From Comamonadaceae bacterium OH2545_COT-014 (GTDB lineage Bacteria > Pseudomonadota > Gammaproteobacteria > Burkholderiales > Burkholderiaceae_C), in the NCBI GenBank assembly GCA_003859965.1, contig RQYR01000015.1, positions 1-64,000 on the forward strand: a stretch of DNA of 64,000 bases. Direction: 5' to 3'. The position numbers were made by a program, and so were the translations under genes. This document shows positions 53,639 through 64,000 of the stretch, one piece after another. The notes below the pieces were generated by a model. It did not search any database. It saw only the letters and a program-made list of their open reading frames with translations, and was not told where the DNA came from. Numbering within the stretch: the first letter of the stretch is position 1; every line of letters begins with the position of its first letter.

Positions 53639-53813
53639 GCCTGTCCTCAAAACCGTCGTGAATAGCGATCGCCCCAGGACGGGGATGCGTGCAAGGCGCA
53701 AAACACAGCCCAAGCGCGAACAATGGCTCGTGTCATTGGCCAGATTTGCTTGCACCGCAAACCGCCTAACCCAAGGATGAGCATGACGCGAGGATTTTGC
53801 AGACAGGTTCTCA
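53639..53813. repeat. MITE-like element, copy F
   Basis: Left end CCTGTCCTCAAAACCGTCG; right end, read in reverse, GAGAACCTGTCTGCAAAATC. Its inner part (53730-53770, TCATTGGCCAGATTTGCTTG and on) aligns with 11420-11460 in copy B. The reverse-read right end begins with TGA, the stop codon of the DUF1854 gene. With the R1 copy it fills the 53453-53810 gap, which has no gene. Confidence 0.6.
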
Positions 53814-54281
53814 AAGAAAGCGGTCCAGCAGCTTGCGGCTGGCACGATCCATGTCTTGCGGGTTGCGTACCAGGTATTGCACGCCGTGTTCATCACAAAC
53901 GATGAGCAGCTGGTGGTTGAGCCGGCGAATGTCCTCCTCGCCCTTGAGCACGAAGCGGGTGGCGCCGCGGTCGGTGTCCACCTCCCAGGTGCAGGGGGTG
54001 ACGAAGCCGCTGACGGCTTTCAGGCGCTGGATGACGGGCATGAATTCGCGCTGCGCCAGCGCCTCGGCCACCAGGCCGCGTGCCGGTTCGGGCAGGGTGT
54101 CCAGGCGCTCGATCCAGGCGCGCTCGTGGCCATCCGCATCAACCAGGCTCACGCATTCGTCCGGGGCGTGGATGGGGAAAGCGCGCACGGCCACCACACC
54201 CACGTGAACATGGCCTTGCGCGTCCGTCAGCACCAGGCGGCCAAAGGCGTCGCGCTGCAAGTCAAAGGCCATGGTGTTCAT
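53811..54281 (-). CDS. Cyanophycin-associated DUF1854 protein
   Basis: 156-aa soluble protein of the DUF1854 family, which occurs next to cyanophycin synthetase genes. Recognisable parts are FDLQRDAFGRLVLTDAQGHV, RAFPIHAPDECVSLVDADGH and the C-terminal RRLNHQLLIVCDEHGVQYLV RNPQDMDRASRKLLDRFL. Molecular role unknown. Its ATG overlaps the ABC-transporter stop by four bases (ATGA), so it is coupled to it and presumably works with it. Confidence 0.88.
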   Translation of the reverse strand: MNTMAFDLQRDAFGRLVLTDAQGHVHVGVVAVRAFPIHAPDECVSLVDADGHERAWIERLDTLPEPARGLVAEALAQREFMPVIQRLKAVSGFVTPCTWEVDTDRGATRFVLKGEEDIRRLNHQLLIVCDEHGVQYLVRNPQDMDRASRKLLDRFL

Positions 54282-56548
54282 GCGCGTACCTCCTGCGGCT
54301 GGGGCGTTTCGGCACCGCCGGCGGCCGCGTCCGCCAGGCGGTCGCGCTCGGCCTGTTCCTGGCGGGCCTGGGCTTCATACAGGCGCCAGTAGGCGCCGCG
54401 CCGGGCCATCAGCTCGGCATGGCTGCCCTCCTCCACCTTGCTGCCTTTGTCCATGACCACCAGGCGGTCGGCCTTGCGCAGCGTGGACAGGCGGTGGGCA
54501 ATGGCAATGGTGGTGCGCCCGCGCACCAGGTTGTCGAGCGCTTTCTGGATTTCCTTCTCGGTCTCGGTATCGACCGACGAGGTGGCTTCATCAAGGATGA
54601 GGATGCGCGGGTCGATCAACAGCGCGCGCGCAATGCTGATGCGCTGGCGCTCCCCGCCCGACAGGCCCTGGCCGCGTTCGCCCACGAGCGAGTCATAGCC
54701 CTGGGGCAGCCGCAAGATGAATTCATGCGCATGGGCGGCGCGCGCAGCGGCAATGATTTCGGCGCGCGTGGCCCCGGGCTTGCCGTAGGCGATGTTCTCG
54801 GCGATGGTGCCGAAGAACAGGAAGGGCTCTTGCAGCACCAGGCCGATGTGGCGGCGCCAGTCGGCCACGCGCAGGTCGCGGATGTCAATGCCGTCCACGC
54901 AGATGCGCCCGCCCGTCACGTCATAGAAGCGGCAAATCAGGTTCACCAGCGTGCTCTTGCCCGAGCCGCTGTGCCCCACCAGGCCCACGAATTCGCCGGG
55001 GGTAATGTCCAGGTTCAGCCCACGCAAGATGCCACGGCTGCCGTAGCGGAAGCTGGCGTTTTCCACCGTGATGCGCCCTTGCACGGCCGGCAGCTGCACG
55101 GGGGTTGCCGGTTCGGGCACGCTGGAGCTGTGGTCAAGAATTTCAAAAATGCGCTTGGTGGCCGTGGCCGCCTTCTGCGTGACGGAAACGATGCGGCTCA
55201 TCGAATCCAGCCGCGCGTAAAAGCGCCCGATGTAGGCCAGAAAGGCTGTCAGCACGCCCACCGTGACCTCGTTCTGGCTGACCAGCCAGATGCCGAAGGC
55301 CCACACCACCAGCAGGCCCGCCTCGGTCAGCAGCGTGACGGTGGGGGCAAACAGCGACCAGAGCCGGTTCAGCCGGTCATTGACTTGCAGGTTCTGGCGG
55401 TTGGCATCCTGAAAGCGCCGCGCCTCGCGCTCTTCTTGCGCGAAGGCCTTGACCACGCGGATGCCGGGAATGGTGTCGGCCAGCACGTTGGTCACTTCGC
55501 TCCAGACACGGGAGATCTTTTCAAACCCGGTGCGCAGGCGGCCGCGCACCACGTGGATCATCCAGCCGATGAAGGGCAGCGGCACCAGTGTGACCAGCGC
55601 CAGCGTGGGGTTGATGGAGAACAGAATGACCGCCGTCATCAGGATCATCAGCACGTCGGTGGCGAAGTCCAGCAGGTGCAGCGAGAGAAAGAGGTTGATG
55701 CGGTCCGTCTCGCTGCCGATGCGCGCCATCAGGTCGCCCGTGCGGCGGCCGCCAAAGTATTCCAGCGACAGTTGCAGCAGGTGTTCGTAAGTGGTGGTGC
55801 GCAGGTCGGCGCCGATGCGTTCGGACACCAGCGCCAGCATCCACGTCTTGGCCCAGCCCAGCACCCACGCCAGCAGCGCCGAGCCCAGCAGGCCGCTCAA
55901 ATAGAACGCCACCAGGCCAGGGTCGATGGGCTGGCCGCTCTGGAACGGGATAAGCACCTTGTCCATCAGCGGAATGGTCAGGTACGGCGGCACCAGCGTG
56001 GCGGCCGTGGCCGCCACCATGAGCAAAAAAGCCCCCAGCAGCTGCCAGCGGTAGGGGCGCGCAAAGCGCCACAGGCGCAGCAGGGTCCAGGTGCTGGGGG
56101 GCTGGTCGGCCACGGCGGCATCGGCTGGCGGGTCGTCCGTTTCCGGCGCCGCCAGGGGCGTGCCGCCTTGCAGGGCCGCCCGGGCGGCTTCAAAGTGCGT
56201 CATCAGGCGCAGCGCCTGCGGCTGCCGGCCCAGCGTGTAGCGCCATGCTGCCAGCAAGCCTTGCGCATCGCGCAGCTCCAGCGTGCCCACGCCGGCGTGA
56301 TCGTGGTGCGCCAGCGTCAAATCACCGTGCAGATTCCACGATTTCCAGCCTGTTTCATCCGGAAACCAGGCCAGCAGCCGCTGGTTTGTAACGTGTAGCT
56401 GTCCTGGCGCAAAGTGCAGGCGGGCGTCCAGATCGATACTCAGGCTGGCCGTGACGCGCTCGTCAGCGCGCAGCGGCACGGCCTCTGGCGGGCTGGGCAA
56501 AGACGCCGGATCGCCAGCTTCTGAAACGTGAGATACGTGAAACGACAT
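54278..56548 (-). CDS. Cyanophycin-associated ABC exporter with N-terminal PH-like domain
   Basis: 756-aa half-transporter. Residues ~1-150 form a non-membrane domain (FAPGQLHVTNQRLLAW..., GRAM/PH-like in appearance) not found in ordinary exporters. Then come six membrane helices (WQLLGAFLLMVAATAATLVP on) and a nucleotide-binding domain with Walker A GHSGSGKST, signature LSGGERQRISIARAL, Walker B ILILDEATSSVD and the H-loop IAHRLSTL. It functions as a dimer. The substrate is unknown; linked to cyanophycin metabolism by its constant neighbourhood. Divergent from the two synthetase genes. Confidence 0.92.
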   Translation of the reverse strand: MSFHVSHVSEAGDPASLPSPPEAVPLRADERVTASLSIDLDARLHFAPGQLHVTNQRLLAWFPDETGWKSWNLHGDLTLAHHDHAGVGTLELRDAQGLLAAWRYTLGRQPQALRLMTHFEAARAALQGGTPLAAPETDDPPADAAVADQPPSTWTLLRLWRFARPYRWQLLGAFLLMVAATAATLVPPYLTIPLMDKVLIPFQSGQPIDPGLVAFYLSGLLGSALLAWVLGWAKTWMLALVSERIGADLRTTTYEHLLQLSLEYFGGRRTGDLMARIGSETDRINLFLSLHLLDFATDVLMILMTAVILFSINPTLALVTLVPLPFIGWMIHVVRGRLRTGFEKISRVWSEVTNVLADTIPGIRVVKAFAQEEREARRFQDANRQNLQVNDRLNRLWSLFAPTVTLLTEAGLLVVWAFGIWLVSQNEVTVGVLTAFLAYIGRFYARLDSMSRIVSVTQKAATATKRIFEILDHSSSVPEPATPVQLPAVQGRITVENASFRYGSRGILRGLNLDITPGEFVGLVGHSGSGKSTLVNLICRFYDVTGGRICVDGIDIRDLRVADWRRHIGLVLQEPFLFFGTIAENIAYGKPGATRAEIIAAARAAHAHEFILRLPQGYDSLVGERGQGLSGGERQRISIARALLIDPRILILDEATSSVDTETEKEIQKALDNLVRGRTTIAIAHRLSTLRKADRLVVMDKGSKVEEGSHAELMARRGAYWRLYEAQARQEQAERDRLADAAAGGAETPQPQEVRA

Positions 56549-56664
56549 AGGCCGCCTAGTGTGCCCCAGCCCGCCGTCCGCCCGCGGCAAAAGGCGCAAA
56601 CCTTCGTAAACACTTGACACCCGCAGCACGCTCCAAACAAGGCACACTCTGCGCCCTATCTCTC

Positions 56665-58977
56665 ATGCGTCCCATGGATTCTGATCTTCTTCATGCCCAC
56701 GGCAACCCAGACGCCGTGGCCGGCGCCGTCACCACGAACCATGCAGGCGAGGCGGCCCCCGCCCAGCCCTTCGCCGACATCGTGATCCGCCGCATGGCCT
56801 ACTTGCGCGGCCCCAGCATCTGGACCTACCGGCCGGTGATTGAAGCCGTGGTGGACATTGGCGAGCTGGAAAACTTTCCCTCCAACACCTTGCCGGGTTT
56901 TTATGAACGCCTGACGCGCTGGCTGCCTGGCCTGATCGAGCACCGCTGCAGCGTGGGCCGGCGCGGCGGCTTTCTGATGCGCCTGCGCGACGGCACCTGG
57001 CCGGGCCACATCCTGGAACACGTGGCGCTGGAGCTGCAAACCCAGGCCGGCATGAAAACCGGCTTCGGCAAGGCCCGCATGACGCACGAGCAGGGCGTGT
57101 ACAAGGTGGTGATCCGCACCCGTGATGAGGCCGTGGGCCGCGCCGCCATTGAGGCCGCACGCGATCTCGTCATGGCTGCCATCAACCACCGGCCGTTCGA
57201 CGTGCCGGCCGTCATCGCCCGCCTCAAGGACATGGTGGATCGCCGCTGCCTCGGCCCCAGCACGGCCAGCATCGTTGAAGCCGCCAGCGAACGTGGCATC
57301 CCCGCCCTGCGCCTGAACAGCGGCAACCTGGTTCAGCTCGGTCATGGCGCTGCCCAGCGCCGCATCTGGACCGCCGAAACCGATTGCACCAGCGCCATTG
57401 CCGAAGGCATTGCCCGCGACAAGACGCTGACCAAGACGCTGCTGTCCGCCTGCGGCGTGCCCGTGCCGGCGGGCTGCGTCGTGCACAGCGGCGCCGAGGC
57501 CTGGGAAGCGGCCGAAGACATCGGCCTGCCGGTGGTGGTCAAGCCGTCGGACGCCAGCCAGGCGCGCGGCGTATCGCTGCACCTGCACACGCGCCAGGAG
57601 GTGGAAGAAGCTTTCACCGCCGCCGAACAGGAAGGCGGCGAGGTCATGGTCGAGCGCTGCATCGCCGGTGAGCCGCATCGCCTGCTGGTGGTGGGCCACA
57701 AGGTGGTGGCCGCCATCCGCGGTGAAACCGCGCGCATTCATGGCGATGGCCGCACCTCCGTGGCCGGGCTGATCGCCTCGCAAATCAATACCGACCCGCG
57801 GCGGGGCGCCGAAGCCCGGCGCCCGCTGGCCCCGCTGAACGTGCAAGACCCCGCCGTGCAGCGCGAGCTGGCCCGCCAGGGGCTCACCGCCGCCAGCGTG
57901 CTGCCCGTGGGCCGCAGCGCCGTGGTGCAGCGCACCGGCAACCTGATACACGACGTGACCGCCCTGGTCCACCCCGACGTGGCGCACCAGGCCAGCCTGG
58001 CCGCGCGCGCCGTCGGGCTGGACATTGCCGGCATCGACCTGGTCACGCCAGACATCAGCCAGCCGCTGGCAGCCCAGGGCGGCGCCATCATCGAAGTGGA
58101 CGCCGGCCCCAGCCTGCTGATGCACCTGCAACCAGCCGTGGGCCGCGCCCAACCCGTGGGCGAAGCCATCGTGGGGCACTTGTTTCCCCCTGGAGAAAAC
58201 GGCCGCATCCCCATCGTGGGCATCACCGGCGGCGCGGACGATGGCCACGCCAGCCTGGCCGCCCGCCTCATCGCCCGGCTGCTGAACCTGAGCGGCCGCC
58301 TCACCGCCCTGGCCTGCGCGGACGGCCTGTACCTCGGCCCGCGCCAGCTTGCCGAAGGCCATTCCCTGGGCTGGGAGGCGGGCGAGCGCATGCTCATCAA
58401 CCGCACCGTGCAAGCCGCCGTGCTGCAAACCACGGCCCGCCACATCCTCACCGAAGGGCTGCCTTATGACCGCTGCCTGATCGGCGTGGTCACGGCCATG
58501 CCCTCGCCCGCCGGCCTGCATGACCTGTACATCACCGAAGCCGGGCAGATGCCCGGCATCATCCGCACCCAGGTGGACGTGGTGCTGCCCAGCGGCTGCG
58601 CCGTGCTCAACGCCGACGATCCCGGCGTGGCCGAGCTGGCCGGCTACAGCGATGGCGACGTGATCTTCTACGCCACCGATGCCGCCAACCCCGCCGTTGC
58701 CGCCCACCGCGCCAGCGGCGGCCGCGCCGTGCTGGCCAACGGCAGTGCGCTCACCCTGGCCAAAGGCCGCAGCGAAACCACCTTGCTTGACCTGGCAGCT
58801 CCGGCGTTTGCAGCGTTCGCCAACCTGGCCGCCAGCGCTGACCAGCCCGCCCGCGCGCATGACATTCGCCCGGCCGTCATGGCCGCCGCCGCCGCGGCCT
58901 GGGCGCTTGGCATTGCCCCGGACCTGATCCGCGCCGGCTTGCAAAGCCAGGGCCAGCCCCTTGGCGCCAGCGCCTGA
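56665..58977 (+). CDS. Cyanophycin synthetase-like protein CphA' with degenerate ATP sites
   Basis: 770 aa (767 if the ATG at 56674 is used). The N-domain (LRGPSIWTYRPVIEAVVDIG) has GHILEHVALELQ with H115-x-x-E118-H119. An ATP-grasp domain follows, but its loop reads KPSDASQARGV where CphA has KPQDGNQGKGV. The Mur-ligase-like domain has GITGGADDGHAS (from ~519) in place of GTNGKTTT. The protein ends where the Mur C-terminal lobe would begin. Comparable to the second paralogue (CphA') of Cupriavidus and Nitrosomonas, or to CphA2. It may be a partner of CphA rather than a full polymerase. Confidence 0.9.
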   Translation: MRPMDSDLLHAHGNPDAVAGAVTTNHAGEAAPAQPFADIVIRRMAYLRGPSIWTYRPVIEAVVDIGELENFPSNTLPGFYERLTRWLPGLIEHRCSVGRRGGFLMRLRDGTWPGHILEHVALELQTQAGMKTGFGKARMTHEQGVYKVVIRTRDEAVGRAAIEAARDLVMAAINHRPFDVPAVIARLKDMVDRRCLGPSTASIVEAASERGIPALRLNSGNLVQLGHGAAQRRIWTAETDCTSAIAEGIARDKTLTKTLLSACGVPVPAGCVVHSGAEAWEAAEDIGLPVVVKPSDASQARGVSLHLHTRQEVEEAFTAAEQEGGEVMVERCIAGEPHRLLVVGHKVVAAIRGETARIHGDGRTSVAGLIASQINTDPRRGAEARRPLAPLNVQDPAVQRELARQGLTAASVLPVGRSAVVQRTGNLIHDVTALVHPDVAHQASLAARAVGLDIAGIDLVTPDISQPLAAQGGAIIEVDAGPSLLMHLQPAVGRAQPVGEAIVGHLFPPGENGRIPIVGITGGADDGHASLAARLIARLLNLSGRLTALACADGLYLGPRQLAEGHSLGWEAGERMLINRTVQAAVLQTTARHILTEGLPYDRCLIGVVTAMPSPAGLHDLYITEAGQMPGIIRTQVDVVLPSGCAVLNADDPGVAELAGYSDGDVIFYATDAANPAVAAHRASGGRAVLANGSALTLAKGRSETTLLDLAAPAFAAFANLAASADQPARAHDIRPAVMAAAAAAWALGIAPDLIRAGLQSQGQPLGASA

Positions 58978-59146
58978 AAGCGCCCTGTCCGAACGCCATG
59001 CCCGGCCCCGCCGCCAGACCAAGATGCCCCATACGCTTTTTACAAGCCAAAAACACCTTCAAGGCTTGAGACACGGACGTTAGAAGCTATATTTTTCATA
59101 GTTCTCAGCGTCGACGGCCGTACGGGGCCGATTTGCACCGTTGGTG

Positions 59147-59201
59147 CCTTCTTTGTGTCCCCGTTTTCTTGGGGTCCCTTCTTGGTGTCCCGTTTGCCTG
59201 G
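59147..59201 (+). repeat. Two direct repeats upstream of cphA
   Basis: CCTTCTTTGTGTCCCCGTTT (59147 on) and CCTTCTTGGTGTCCCGTTT (59177 on), 30 bases apart, in the 249-base gap before cphA. They end about 25 bases before the start codon, so they lie in the leader or promoter. Confidence 0.65.
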
Positions 59202-59226
59202 CGCTCCACCTTCCTGAAAGCAGTTC

Positions 59227-61932
59227 ATGGAAATCACCCGCATCCGCGCACTGCGCGGCCCCAACCTCTGGAGCCGCCACACGGCTATCGAAGCCGTGGT
59301 GGCCTGTAGCGAACCCGAGCGCGACCTGAGCGCCACCCCTGCCTTCGAGGCCCGCCTGCGCGAGCTTTTTCCCGGCCTGGGCGCCTTGCGCTCCAACCGG
59401 CCGGGCGTGCCCGTTTCCCTGCCCCATGCGCTGGAGCTGACCGCGCTGGCACTGCAGGCGCAGGCCGGCTGTCCCGTCACCTTCAGCCGCACCACGCCCA
59501 CTGAGATGCCGGGCGCCTTTCAGGTGGTGGTGCAGTACACCGAAGAGGCCGTGGGCCGGCTGGCCTTTGAAAAGGCGCAGCAGCTGTGCCGCGCTGCCGC
59601 CAGCCGCCTGCTGAACCCCGCTGCCGAAGATGACAGCCCGGCCTTTGACCTGGCCGCCGCGCTGGCCGAGCTGCGAGAGCTGGATGAGGACGAACGCCTC
59701 GGCCCTTCCACGGGCGCCATCGTCAATGCTGCGCTGCAGCACGGCATTCCCTGCAAGCGCCTCACGCGCGGCAGCCTGGTACAACTGGGCTGGGGCAGCC
59801 ACCAGCGGCGCATTCAGGCTGCGGAGGTGGACGGCACCAGCGTCATCGCCGAATCCATCGCGCAAGACAAAGACCTGACCAAGAAACTGCTGCACGCCGC
59901 TGGCGTGCCCGTTCCGGCTGGCCGCCCCGTTGCCAGTCTGGAAGATGGCTGGGCCGCTGCGCAAGCCATTGGCCTGCCTGTTGTCGTCAAGCCGCAAGAC
60001 GGCAACCAGGGCAAGGGCGTTACCGTCGGCATTGTCGATCGCGGCCATTTCGAAGTGGCCTACCAGGCTGCTGCGCGTTACGGCGGCGTGATGGTGGAGC
60101 GCTACCTGCCCGGCCACGACTACCGCCTGCTGGTAGTGGGCGACAAACTGGTGGCGGCCGCCCGGCGTGATCCGCCGCTGGTCACTGGCGACGGCCGCCA
60201 CACGGTGCGTGAACTGGTGGATGAGGTCAACCGCGACCCGCGCCGTGGCGCTGGCCATGGCACTTCCCTCACCCGCATTCGTATCGACGACATCGCCGTG
60301 GCCCGCCTGGCCGCGCAGGGGCTCACGCCTGAGAGCGTACCCGCCAAGGGCCAGCGCGTGGTCTTGCGCAACAACGCCAACCTGTCCACCGGCGGCACCG
60401 CGACCGACGTAACCGACAGCGTGCACCCCGAAGTAGCGGCCCGCGCCGTGGAAGCGGCGCAAATGGTGGGTCTGGACATCTGCGGCGTGGACGTGGTGTG
60501 CGAGAGCGTGATGCAGCCGCTGGAATCGCAAGGCGGCGGCATCGTCGAAGTCAACGCGGCGCCCGGCTTGCGCATGCACATCAGCCCCTCTTTCGGCAAA
60601 GGCCGTGACGTGGGCCGCGCCATCATCGAGCACATGTACCCGGACGGCGGCAATGGCCGCATTCCCGTCATCGCCGTCACCGGCACCAATGGCAAGACCA
60701 CCACCGTGCGCCTGGCCGCGCATCTGCTCAAGGCCCACGGCCTGCGCGTGGGCATGACCAACACCGACGGCGTGTACGTCAATGGCCGCCAGACCGACAG
60801 CGGCGACTGCTCCGGCCCGCGCAGCGCGCGCAACGTGCTGGCCCACCCGGACGTGGATGCCGCCGTGCTGGAAACCGCACGCGGCGGCCTGCTGCGCGAG
60901 GGGCTGGCCTTCGACCGCTGCGACGTGGCCATCGTCACCAACATGGGCGCGGGCGACCACCTGGGCCTGAACTACATCACCACGCTCGAAGACCTGGCGG
61001 TGCTCAAGCGCGTCATCGTCAAGAACGTGGCGCCTGGCGGCATGGCCGTGCTCAACGCCGCCGACCCTGCCGTGGCGGCCATGGCCCCGCACTGCCCGGG
61101 CCGCGTCACCTTTTTCGCGCTGGACGGCACGCACCCCGTCATCGACACCCACCGCGCAAAAGGCCAGCGCGTGGTGTACGTGGAGCGCGGCGACATCATC
61201 TGCGCCGAAGGGCGCTTCAGCAAACGCTTGCCGCTGGCCCGGGTGCCGCTCACGCGCGACGGACAGATCGGCTTTCAGGTGCAGAACGTCATGGCCTCCG
61301 TGGCCGCCGCCTGGGCCTTGGGCCTGCCCTGGGCCACCATCCAGCGCGGCCTGGCCAGCTTCATCAGCGACACGCACGGCGTGCCCGGCCGCTTCAACGT
61401 GTTCGACTACCGTGGCGCCACGCTGATTGCCGACTACGGCCACAACCCCGACGCCATCGCCGCCCTGATTGATGCCGTCAACAACCTGCCTGCCCGCCAG
61501 CGCAGCGTGGTCATCAGCGGTGCGGGCGACCGGCGCGACGAAGATATCCGCGCCCAGACCCGCCTGCTGGGCGCGGCCTTTGACGAAGTGTTTCTCTACC
61601 AGGATGCCTGCCAGCGCGGCCGCGCAGACGGTGAAGTGCTGGCCCTGCTGCGCCAGGGATTGGAAGGCGCGCACCGCACGCGGCATGTGGAAGAAATCCA
61701 GGGTGAGCTGAACGCCATTGACCACGCGCTGGCCCGTCTTTCAGCGGGAGACTTGTGCCTGATCCTGATCGACCAGGTGGAACTGGCGTTGGCCCACATT
61801 CAACAGCAGGTACAAGCCGCCCGCCCGCCACGCCGCCGCAAGGCCGCCGCAGCGGCAGCCCCGCGCGCATCCGGCACGTCACGACTGACGGCAACCCACG
61901 CCGCTGGCGGCACGCATTCATTGCACCTGTGA
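59227..61932 (+). CDS. cphA: Cyanophycin synthetase
   Basis: Polymerises Asp and Arg, with ATP, into the nitrogen-storage polymer cyanophycin. 901 aa. The N-domain (MEITRIRALRGPNLWSRHTA) is followed by an ATP-grasp domain with KPQDGNQGKGV, which adds Asp. The Mur-ligase-like domain has P-loop GTNGKTTT at ~486 and a full C-lobe (HGVPGRFNVFDYRGATLIAD YGHNPDAI), which adds Arg. A basic Ala/Arg tail ends it. In the N-domain the HxxEH element of CphA' is HALEL (H67, E70, no second His). It follows CphA' in the same direction. Confidence 0.97.
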   Translation: MEITRIRALRGPNLWSRHTAIEAVVACSEPERDLSATPAFEARLRELFPGLGALRSNRPGVPVSLPHALELTALALQAQAGCPVTFSRTTPTEMPGAFQVVVQYTEEAVGRLAFEKAQQLCRAAASRLLNPAAEDDSPAFDLAAALAELRELDEDERLGPSTGAIVNAALQHGIPCKRLTRGSLVQLGWGSHQRRIQAAEVDGTSVIAESIAQDKDLTKKLLHAAGVPVPAGRPVASLEDGWAAAQAIGLPVVVKPQDGNQGKGVTVGIVDRGHFEVAYQAAARYGGVMVERYLPGHDYRLLVVGDKLVAAARRDPPLVTGDGRHTVRELVDEVNRDPRRGAGHGTSLTRIRIDDIAVARLAAQGLTPESVPAKGQRVVLRNNANLSTGGTATDVTDSVHPEVAARAVEAAQMVGLDICGVDVVCESVMQPLESQGGGIVEVNAAPGLRMHISPSFGKGRDVGRAIIEHMYPDGGNGRIPVIAVTGTNGKTTTVRLAAHLLKAHGLRVGMTNTDGVYVNGRQTDSGDCSGPRSARNVLAHPDVDAAVLETARGGLLREGLAFDRCDVAIVTNMGAGDHLGLNYITTLEDLAVLKRVIVKNVAPGGMAVLNAADPAVAAMAPHCPGRVTFFALDGTHPVIDTHRAKGQRVVYVERGDIICAEGRFSKRLPLARVPLTRDGQIGFQVQNVMASVAAAWALGLPWATIQRGLASFISDTHGVPGRFNVFDYRGATLIADYGHNPDAIAALIDAVNNLPARQRSVVISGAGDRRDEDIRAQTRLLGAAFDEVFLYQDACQRGRADGEVLALLRQGLEGAHRTRHVEEIQGELNAIDHALARLSAGDLCLILIDQVELALAHIQQQVQAARPPRRRKAAAAAAPRASGTSRLTATHAAGGTHSLHL

Positions 61933-62973: not shown

Positions 62974-64000
<1,027 letters not shown>

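Follow-up and report, generated by a model that had tools for sequence, protein, structure and literature searches.

Predicted active sites divided between the adjacent cyanophycin synthetase paralogues CphA' and CphA of a Comamonadaceae bacterium

The cyanophycin synthetase CphA1 combines an N-domain hydrolase with an aspartate ligase (G domain) and an arginine ligase (M domain), and in the available text of PMC9262961 it is described as its own primer-maker, enzymes without the N-domain site being regarded as likely to depend on leftover chains. According to that text the site takes the form Cx19HxxEH, in which C59, H79 and H83 bind zinc and E82 serves as the base; it is found in 83% of nr70 CphA1 sequences and is thus not universal among them, and the N domain cuts slowly, mainly to tetramers. 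The CphA1 of Tatumella morbirosei (TmCphA1), in which the site is dead, is reported there to be primer-dependent, and to be made primer-independent in trans either by an N domain on its own or by the Synechocystis sp. UTEX2470 enzyme (SuCphA1) in which the G site, the M site or both are dead. The stretch of DNA analysed here, hereafter the window, comprises positions 1-64,000 of contig RQYR01000015.1 of Comamonadaceae bacterium OH2545_COT-014 and carries two adjacent genes on the forward strand, cphA' (56665..58977, 770 residues) and cphA (59227..61932, 901 residues). By their residues, the first would retain the N-domain site without working G and M sites, and the second both ligase sites without that of the N domain. 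It is probable that CphA' acts as a trans-acting, primer-generating endo-cyanophycinase for CphA.

Division of the active sites within the pair

An earlier note, made from the sequence alone, had identified both genes as cyanophycin synthetases, and profile searches agree. CphA lies above the cut-offs of TIGR02068, the CphA1 equivalog (955.5 bits vs 850), and of NF010623 (1219 bits vs 877), while CphA' falls below the former (650.5 bits vs 850) and exceeds only that of the broader NF010623 (915 bits vs 877), in a match that reaches no further than position 713 of the 871 in the profile. For the N-terminal Pfam domain PF18921, CphA' has a score of 130.6 bits and CphA one of 40.9 bits, and the Mur ligase C-lobe (Mur_ligase_C, PF02875), matched at residues 721-846 of CphA (61387..61764, forward strand), has no Pfam match in CphA', which ends before it, as the note had said. 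Its motif positions also proved exact, with HILEH at residues 115-119, SQARGV at 298-303 and GGADDGHAS at 522-530 of CphA', and HALEL at 67-71 and the two adenosine triphosphate (ATP) site motifs NQGKGV at 260-265 and GTNGKTTT at 486-493 of CphA. An alternative start of cphA' at TTG 56614, in place of ATG 56665, would give 787 residues. A search of the genome with CphA' as query returned CphA', CphA and one 30-bit match elsewhere.

The putative metallopeptidase site of CphA' (56941..57033, forward strand) aligns exactly with that of SuCphA1 in structures 7lg5 and 7txv, the latter being of the E82Q mutant. HILEH falls on H79-x-x-E82-H83, so that H115, E118 and H119 take the places of H79, E82 and H83; the third published zinc ligand, C59, has its counterpart in C95 at the same x19 spacing, and H93, F103, R106 and E123 correspond to H57, F67, R70 and E87. 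The pattern C-x19-H-x-x-E-H of a CphA1-type (inverzincin-like) metallopeptidase is thus present with its supporting residues, and CphA' would be expected to bind zinc. All eight residues are invariant in 79/79 and 50/50 CphA' relatives with coverage, and in alignment A1 as well, which disposes of HxxEH as a chance motif. In the AlphaFold model of CphA' (mean predicted local distance difference test score 79.6; 77-96 for ten-residue blocks over 61-180), H115, E118 and H119 sit in a predicted helix, 113-127. The same position in CphA reads PHALEL (HALEL, 59425..59439, forward strand), with leucine in place of H83, and both the equivalent of C59 and part of the loop are deleted or replaced, so that the Cx19HxxEH pattern is not present. 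The earlier note had suggested that the HxxEH of CphA' would fit a metal site in the N domain and had read the site of CphA as altered; its observation is confirmed, and is stronger than stated.

Relatives were drawn from 80 named loci, from 60 stretches of 59 genomes, which represent 52 of the 57 genera that gave matches when 300 genomes of the window's order were sampled, from ten loci of a 398-genome phylum sample (L148, L168-L176) besides the order members already covered, and from 28 further loci of a family sample of 101 genomes, four of 34 matches without a locus being left out. Some genomes recur in both collections, and counts at 90% non-redundancy are therefore given as well. The counts exclude a 659-residue ATP-grasp protein (L177) and Mur-like neighbours, all below 200 bits, and five fragmentary CphA' that do not cover the N domain (L005, L006, L007, L018 and L138, the last scoring slightly nearer to CphA and labelled by position). 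CphA' stands directly upstream of CphA in 79 of the 80 named loci, the exception being at a contig end, and likewise in 50 of the 51 stretches of the pair type within L088-L147, L097 being at a contig edge. Among rows with N-domain coverage, H57, C59, H79, E82 and H83 are all kept in 129/129 CphA' and in 0/133 CphA, as they are in 45 of 47 other CphA1 copies; the non-redundant counts are 88/88, 0/85 and 30/30. H79 (111) and E82 (105) often survive in CphA, and one CphA (L140_A, of L140) retains HxxEH, in the form HVLEH, but has no Cys loop. The split arrangement appears to be shared by most of the enzyme-bearing relatives sampled, and the co-occurrence that the earlier note had proposed to look for is found within the pairs. 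No match was obtained in 198 genomes of the family of G460.

The two other CphA1 copies without the site both belong to L121 (G056:C1:5337500-5347500), where two extra copies, in opposite orientations, are accompanied by a cyanophycinase. The same genome carries a CphA'/CphA pair (L120) as well, and by match positions its congeners G269 and G298 resemble it. Six named single CphA1s lie on plasmids, five with the N site and one, from Chryseobacterium sp. SNU WT5 (L214), without it and with Gln at position 607; no cyanophycinase is found among the annotated neighbours of the last within the stretch. At L109, L111-L116, L170, L171 and L174 a CphA1 outside the pair clade is followed by a second Mur-ligase-like protein of about 576-720 residues (cut by the stretch end in L170, L171 and L174), the named case being a plasmid of Ruegeria sp. 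THAF33 (L213); this protein is possibly a second side-chain ligase.

The ligase sites are distributed in the opposite sense. The G-omega loop of CphA' is shortened (57937..57957, forward strand), and the equivalents of S396-G399 are deleted in 134/134 CphA', while R323 is kept in 0/133 and R458 in 0/134; N394 is mostly kept. Of the M-domain residues, P540 and R561 are kept in 0/134, and A560, G563 and K602 in one, two and one. The same pocket and M-domain losses occur in seven long CphA' of 816-907 residues. The CphA' of Ralstonia eutropha H16 is reported (Adames et al. 2013) to be missing much of the J-loop, possibly the same deletion as here. Wherever CphA has a letter at these positions, R323, S396-G399, R458, P540 and R561 are kept, and the window's CphA has R323, S396, G398, G399, R458, K499, R561, D585 and H586. 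In the available text of PMC9427784, R323, S396, R458 and N394 serve the aspartate pocket of TeCphA1, and with R323, R458 and S396-G399 lost the G site of CphA' is, judged by residue, dead as an aspartate ligase.

The ATP residues mostly persist in CphA' outside the window. K261, E300, R309 and N266 are kept in 133/133 relatives, N452 in 134/134 and H267 in 128/133 (Arg in five). The earlier note had made altered ATP loops the mark of CphA', and both are indeed present in the window copy, as SQARGV in the ATP-grasp loop (57556..57573, forward strand; N266S, H267Q, G268A) and as GGADDGHAS in the Mur P-loop (58228..58254, forward strand), where CphA has an intact GTNGKTTT (60682..60705, forward strand). 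SQARGV is, however, confined to the window among the CphA' read, and what relatives have in common is the loss of the aspartate pocket and of M-domain residues. The window copy is further changed at N452D and at G456S, the latter common to 11/134 CphA'. Judged by its residues, it is not predicted to have working G and M sites of the CphA1 kind, its aspartate pocket, ATP loop and M-domain residues being lost. A comparison set of 45 other CphA1s, 30 of them from one family (f60) and the two L121 copies left out, gives the same division: of residues at least 97% conserved in this set the window's CphA' keeps 24/25 in the N domain, 57/78 in G and 18/39 in M, and its CphA 9/25, 72/78 and 37/39.

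Constraint on the two proteins is likewise reciprocal. In 12 non-overlapping close pairs, hand-picked from the tree, M-domain identity is lower in CphA' than in CphA in all 12 (one CphA comparison spans eight columns), and N-domain identity is higher in CphA' in ten. Between the window and its sister locus L008, CphA' is 98% identical in the N core, 73% in G and 66% in M, against 72%, 82% and 90% for CphA, and the ratio of nonsynonymous to synonymous substitution rates (dN/dS) of CphA' is 0.02 in the N core and 0.12 and 0.28 elsewhere, in the G and M scaffold. A scan of positions 120-668 for those at which CphA' agrees with other CphA1s and CphA does not returned 206, 267, 269, 308 and 607. 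Position 607, which is D638 in the window's CphA' (58576..58578, forward strand) and E607 in SuCphA1, is acidic in 134/134 CphA' (Asp in all) and in 45/45 other CphA1s, though not in the two N-dead L121 copies, and one plasmid enzyme with the N site (L212) has Arg there. In SuCphA1, E607 is an M-domain contact to polymer bound in the N site (available text of PMC9262961).

The proposed role of CphA' and its rivals

The division of labour that the earlier note had suggested finds support in this reciprocal conservation, and the published trans-complementation of TmCphA1 offers a model for the pair. CphA' would be a slow zinc endo-cyanophycinase, cutting the chains made by CphA into short primers, and CphA would then need CphA' in trans for an efficient start. 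The native pair matches the published trans arrangement, and it is on this likeness that CphA' is read as primer-generating. With the hydrolase on a separate polypeptide, cutting and building could be set independently, which a single-chain CphA1 could not achieve by expression level; the available text of PMC9262961 makes the same point, that in one chain the balance of both activities is not tunable by expression. The retained scaffold of CphA' suggests that the two proteins may form a hetero-oligomer, as the note had also supposed.

Several observations weigh against a primer-generating role. In CphA' the G and M scaffold, some 600 residues long, is under purifying selection, which goes beyond the need of a plain peptidase. 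Against the next relative, L093, the N core of the window's CphA' is only 73% identical, with a dN/dS of 0.42, so that the contrast between domains is less sharp at that distance, and in two of the 12 close pairs the N-domain trend is reversed. Position 607 is also acidic in 22/130 CphA. N-dead CphA1s occur in Tatumella, in Acinetobacter baylyi and on the Chryseobacterium sp. SNU WT5 plasmid, in genomes that were not searched for CphA'. CphA itself carries Gln in place of His267, reported as critical in TeCphA1. Heterodimer data in the available text of PMC9262961 slightly favour a hydrolase acting in cis, and the homologues of Ralstonia eutropha H16 were expressed with no detectable cyanophycin (Adames et al. 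2013, as relayed by reviews). As for position 267, Gln is found in 130/132 CphA, where other CphA1s have His, mostly with Lys rather than Arg at 269 (CphA residues 260-265, window 60004-60021), and the G activity of CphA or its product may accordingly differ; a different substrate or product of CphA is conceivable.

The strongest rival is that CphA' is mainly a mobilising enzyme, its zinc site degrading stored polymer when nitrogen is short in place of CphB, with priming secondary, and this is a distinctly less probable reading, albeit a serious one. It draws on the distribution of cyanophycinase. A CphA match was found in 115 of the 300 genomes of the order sample, nine of them lone-type (eight read, G229 assigned by genus) and 104 pair-type (53 read whole or in part, the rest assigned on at least two matches or on one at a contig edge); G016 and G136, whose matches are weak or partial, are excluded. 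The cyanophycinase family TIGR02069 scores over its cut-off in 9/9 genomes with a lone CphA1 and in 7/104 of the pair type (Fisher p 2e-9, uncorrected for kinship, the nine spanning two families), and three of the seven belong to a single genus that has an additional CphA cluster with a cyanophycinase of its own alongside. Outside the order TIGR02069 occurs in 8/9 single-CphA1 genomes, so that a cyanophycinase accompanies an unpaired CphA1 in 17 of 18 genomes overall. The window's genome (99.8% complete) has no TIGR02069 (CphB/CphE) match at E <= 0.001 and no match to PF01112 (IaaA family), and the IadA model reaches only 19 bits. Beta-proteobacteria at large account for 903 of 1614 RefSeq genomes with CphA1, and of these beta-proteobacterial genomes only 2.8% have a recognisable cyanophycinase, a lack called unanticipated (PMC10206079). 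On the other side, the exception among the 18 is G478, where a three-site, unsplit enzyme at the ABC/DUF1854 locus described below also goes without TIGR02069; the lack may therefore follow the locus and not the split, and loss of cyanophycinase as an accompaniment of the split was rejected on this ground. Moreover, the N-domain hydrolase as published works slowly, and its main products, tetramers, need further hydrolysis (available text of PMC9262961), and an unrelated cyanophycinase may exist.

An enzyme of the CphA2 kind, with a pocket widened by the loss of R323, S396-G399 and R458 and joining beta-Asp-Arg dipeptides or another nucleophile, is an unlikely identity for CphA'. In its favour are the ATP residues kept by its relatives (K261, E300, R309, N452 and, mostly, H267); CphA' is usually truncated in the M domain as CphA2 is, and a fold search with the CphA' model places CphA2 structures directly behind those of CphA1, to which the ten best PDB matches all belong. 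The window's CphA' is nevertheless changed at N266, H267, G268, N452 and G456 while its N core is 98% identical to that of L008; with the ATP/Mg site changed and the N core kept, ligase activity is not what appears to be retained here. CphA2 also lacks the N-site motif, according to the available text of PMC9262961, so that CphA', with the N site present and, in the window, ATP loop and N452 changed, does not fit the description of CphA2. Equally improbable is a non-catalytic scaffold or regulator of CphA, the N site being only a polymer- or metal-binding element: constraint on the G and M scaffold and the invariance of R309 and of the 603/607 contacts would suit it, but E118, equivalent to the general base E82, is invariant along with all metal ligands, which binding alone would not need. 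That CphA' is a decaying pseudogene duplicate is barely credible, and is ruled out in the main by conservation and dN/dS, for although its M domain is degenerate, its G loop altered and its G-domain end branch long (0.31 vs 0.13 in the sister), with M-domain dN/dS of 0.67 and 0.85 in two other CphA' pairs, the window copy has no stop or frameshift, its dN/dS against L008 is at most 0.28 outside the N core, and the N site persists in every non-redundant relative.

In the Burkholderiales pairs the N site has not simply disappeared but stands on the adjoining paralogue. It may tentatively be proposed, at well short of even likelihood, that CphA' is the missing beta-proteobacterial hydrolase, both seeding and mobilising polymer, that the pair with its ABC/DUF1854 neighbours forms a self-contained alternative to CphA1 plus cyanophycinase, and that many CphA1s classed as naturally primer-dependent have their primer-maker adjacent. 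A dedicated hydrolase paralogue would make the puzzle of scarce beta-proteobacterial cyanophycinase testable. It could also explain why the R. eutropha H16 genes yielded no polymer, if they were expressed singly, and suggests co-expression of the pair for cyanophycin production.

Origin and neighbourhood of the pair

In G-domain trees, from which CphA2 and the Tatumella chain were left out, CphA' forms one clade (57 rows, support 100; 21 rows, 100/100), as does CphA (58 rows, support 96; 21 rows, 90/91, in 86% of bootstrap trees, the bootstrap not having settled), with other enzymes apart. Divergently upstream of the window's pair, on the reverse strand, lie a cyanophycin metabolism-associated ATP-binding cassette (ABC) transporter, NF052233 (54278..56647; 1334 bits, cut-off 880), and a cyanophycin metabolism-associated DUF1854 protein, NF052234 (53811..54281; 233 bits, cut-off 150). 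The two are strongly tied to the pair, being upstream in 63 of the 64 named pair loci that span 13.5 kb or more, and neither was found within the stretch examined in 15 single or other loci checked. We know of no tested role in cyanophycin metabolism for either (53811-56647); as partners they could handle oligomers or dipeptides. Downstream, at 62974-63837 on the reverse strand, is a reading frame that we take, from its translation by eye, to resemble the C-terminal part of a type I glutamine synthetase, a nitrogen gene beside a storage locus.

G478 carries a single synthetase with all three sites (L168/L206; L206:6284-11779, G478:C9) and a Gln267/Lys269 loop like that of CphA. Upstream and divergent from it are the ABC transporter (1230 bits) and the DUF1854 protein (196 bits) known from the pair loci, with no CphA' between. 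Its place is near the base of both clades, the branching there not being resolved, and it is the only locus of its kind among 48 in its order. The G478 synthetase probably represents the state before duplication, with the caveats that the contig stops inside the gene, so that a downstream copy is possible, and that the assembly is 93% complete and 8% contaminated. The simplest history that fits the trees is one duplication of a three-site gene. It would have been a tandem duplication at the ABC/DUF1854 locus in Burkholderiales-type bacteria, after which CphA would have retained both ATP-driven ligase sites and lost the zinc site once, and CphA' would have retained the zinc site while losing the aspartate pocket, the M-site residues and usually the Mur C-lobe.

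Comparison with known systems

The pair as such is not new. Two synthetase homologues, CphA and CphA', are known from R. eutropha (Cupriavidus necator) H16 (Adames et al. 2013, as cited in reviews), where they were studied before the N-domain site was known. The Group 1 cphA cluster of activated sludge, with two cphA, an ABC transporter and no cphB, is the same neighbourhood (PMC10687191), which was therefore already described, although the available text of that paper does not deal with active sites in either copy; it also describes two cphA in series next to cphB in Tetrasphaera. Pair, neighbourhood and N site have each been described before, and among the matches listed in the CC-licensed PMC literature (titles and abstract starts) no description of a site split between CphA' and CphA, and no paper joining the three, was found.

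CphA2 (7ta5, 8fxh/8fxi) is a relative of CphA1 that works by one active site (PMC10206079) and has a shortened M domain, as in CphA', which differs in retaining the N site and in the loss of its aspartate pocket. TmCphA1 (7lgn) and the A. baylyi CphA (7lgm) are N-dead like the window's CphA, and the A. baylyi chain falls outside the CphA clade of the pairs. The G478 enzyme shares the ABC/DUF1854 neighbours and the Gln267/Lys269 loop, and differs from CphA in its intact N site. SuCphA1 has the same fold and domain order and a Cx19HxxEH identical to that of CphA', and holds on one chain the three sites that the window spreads over two.

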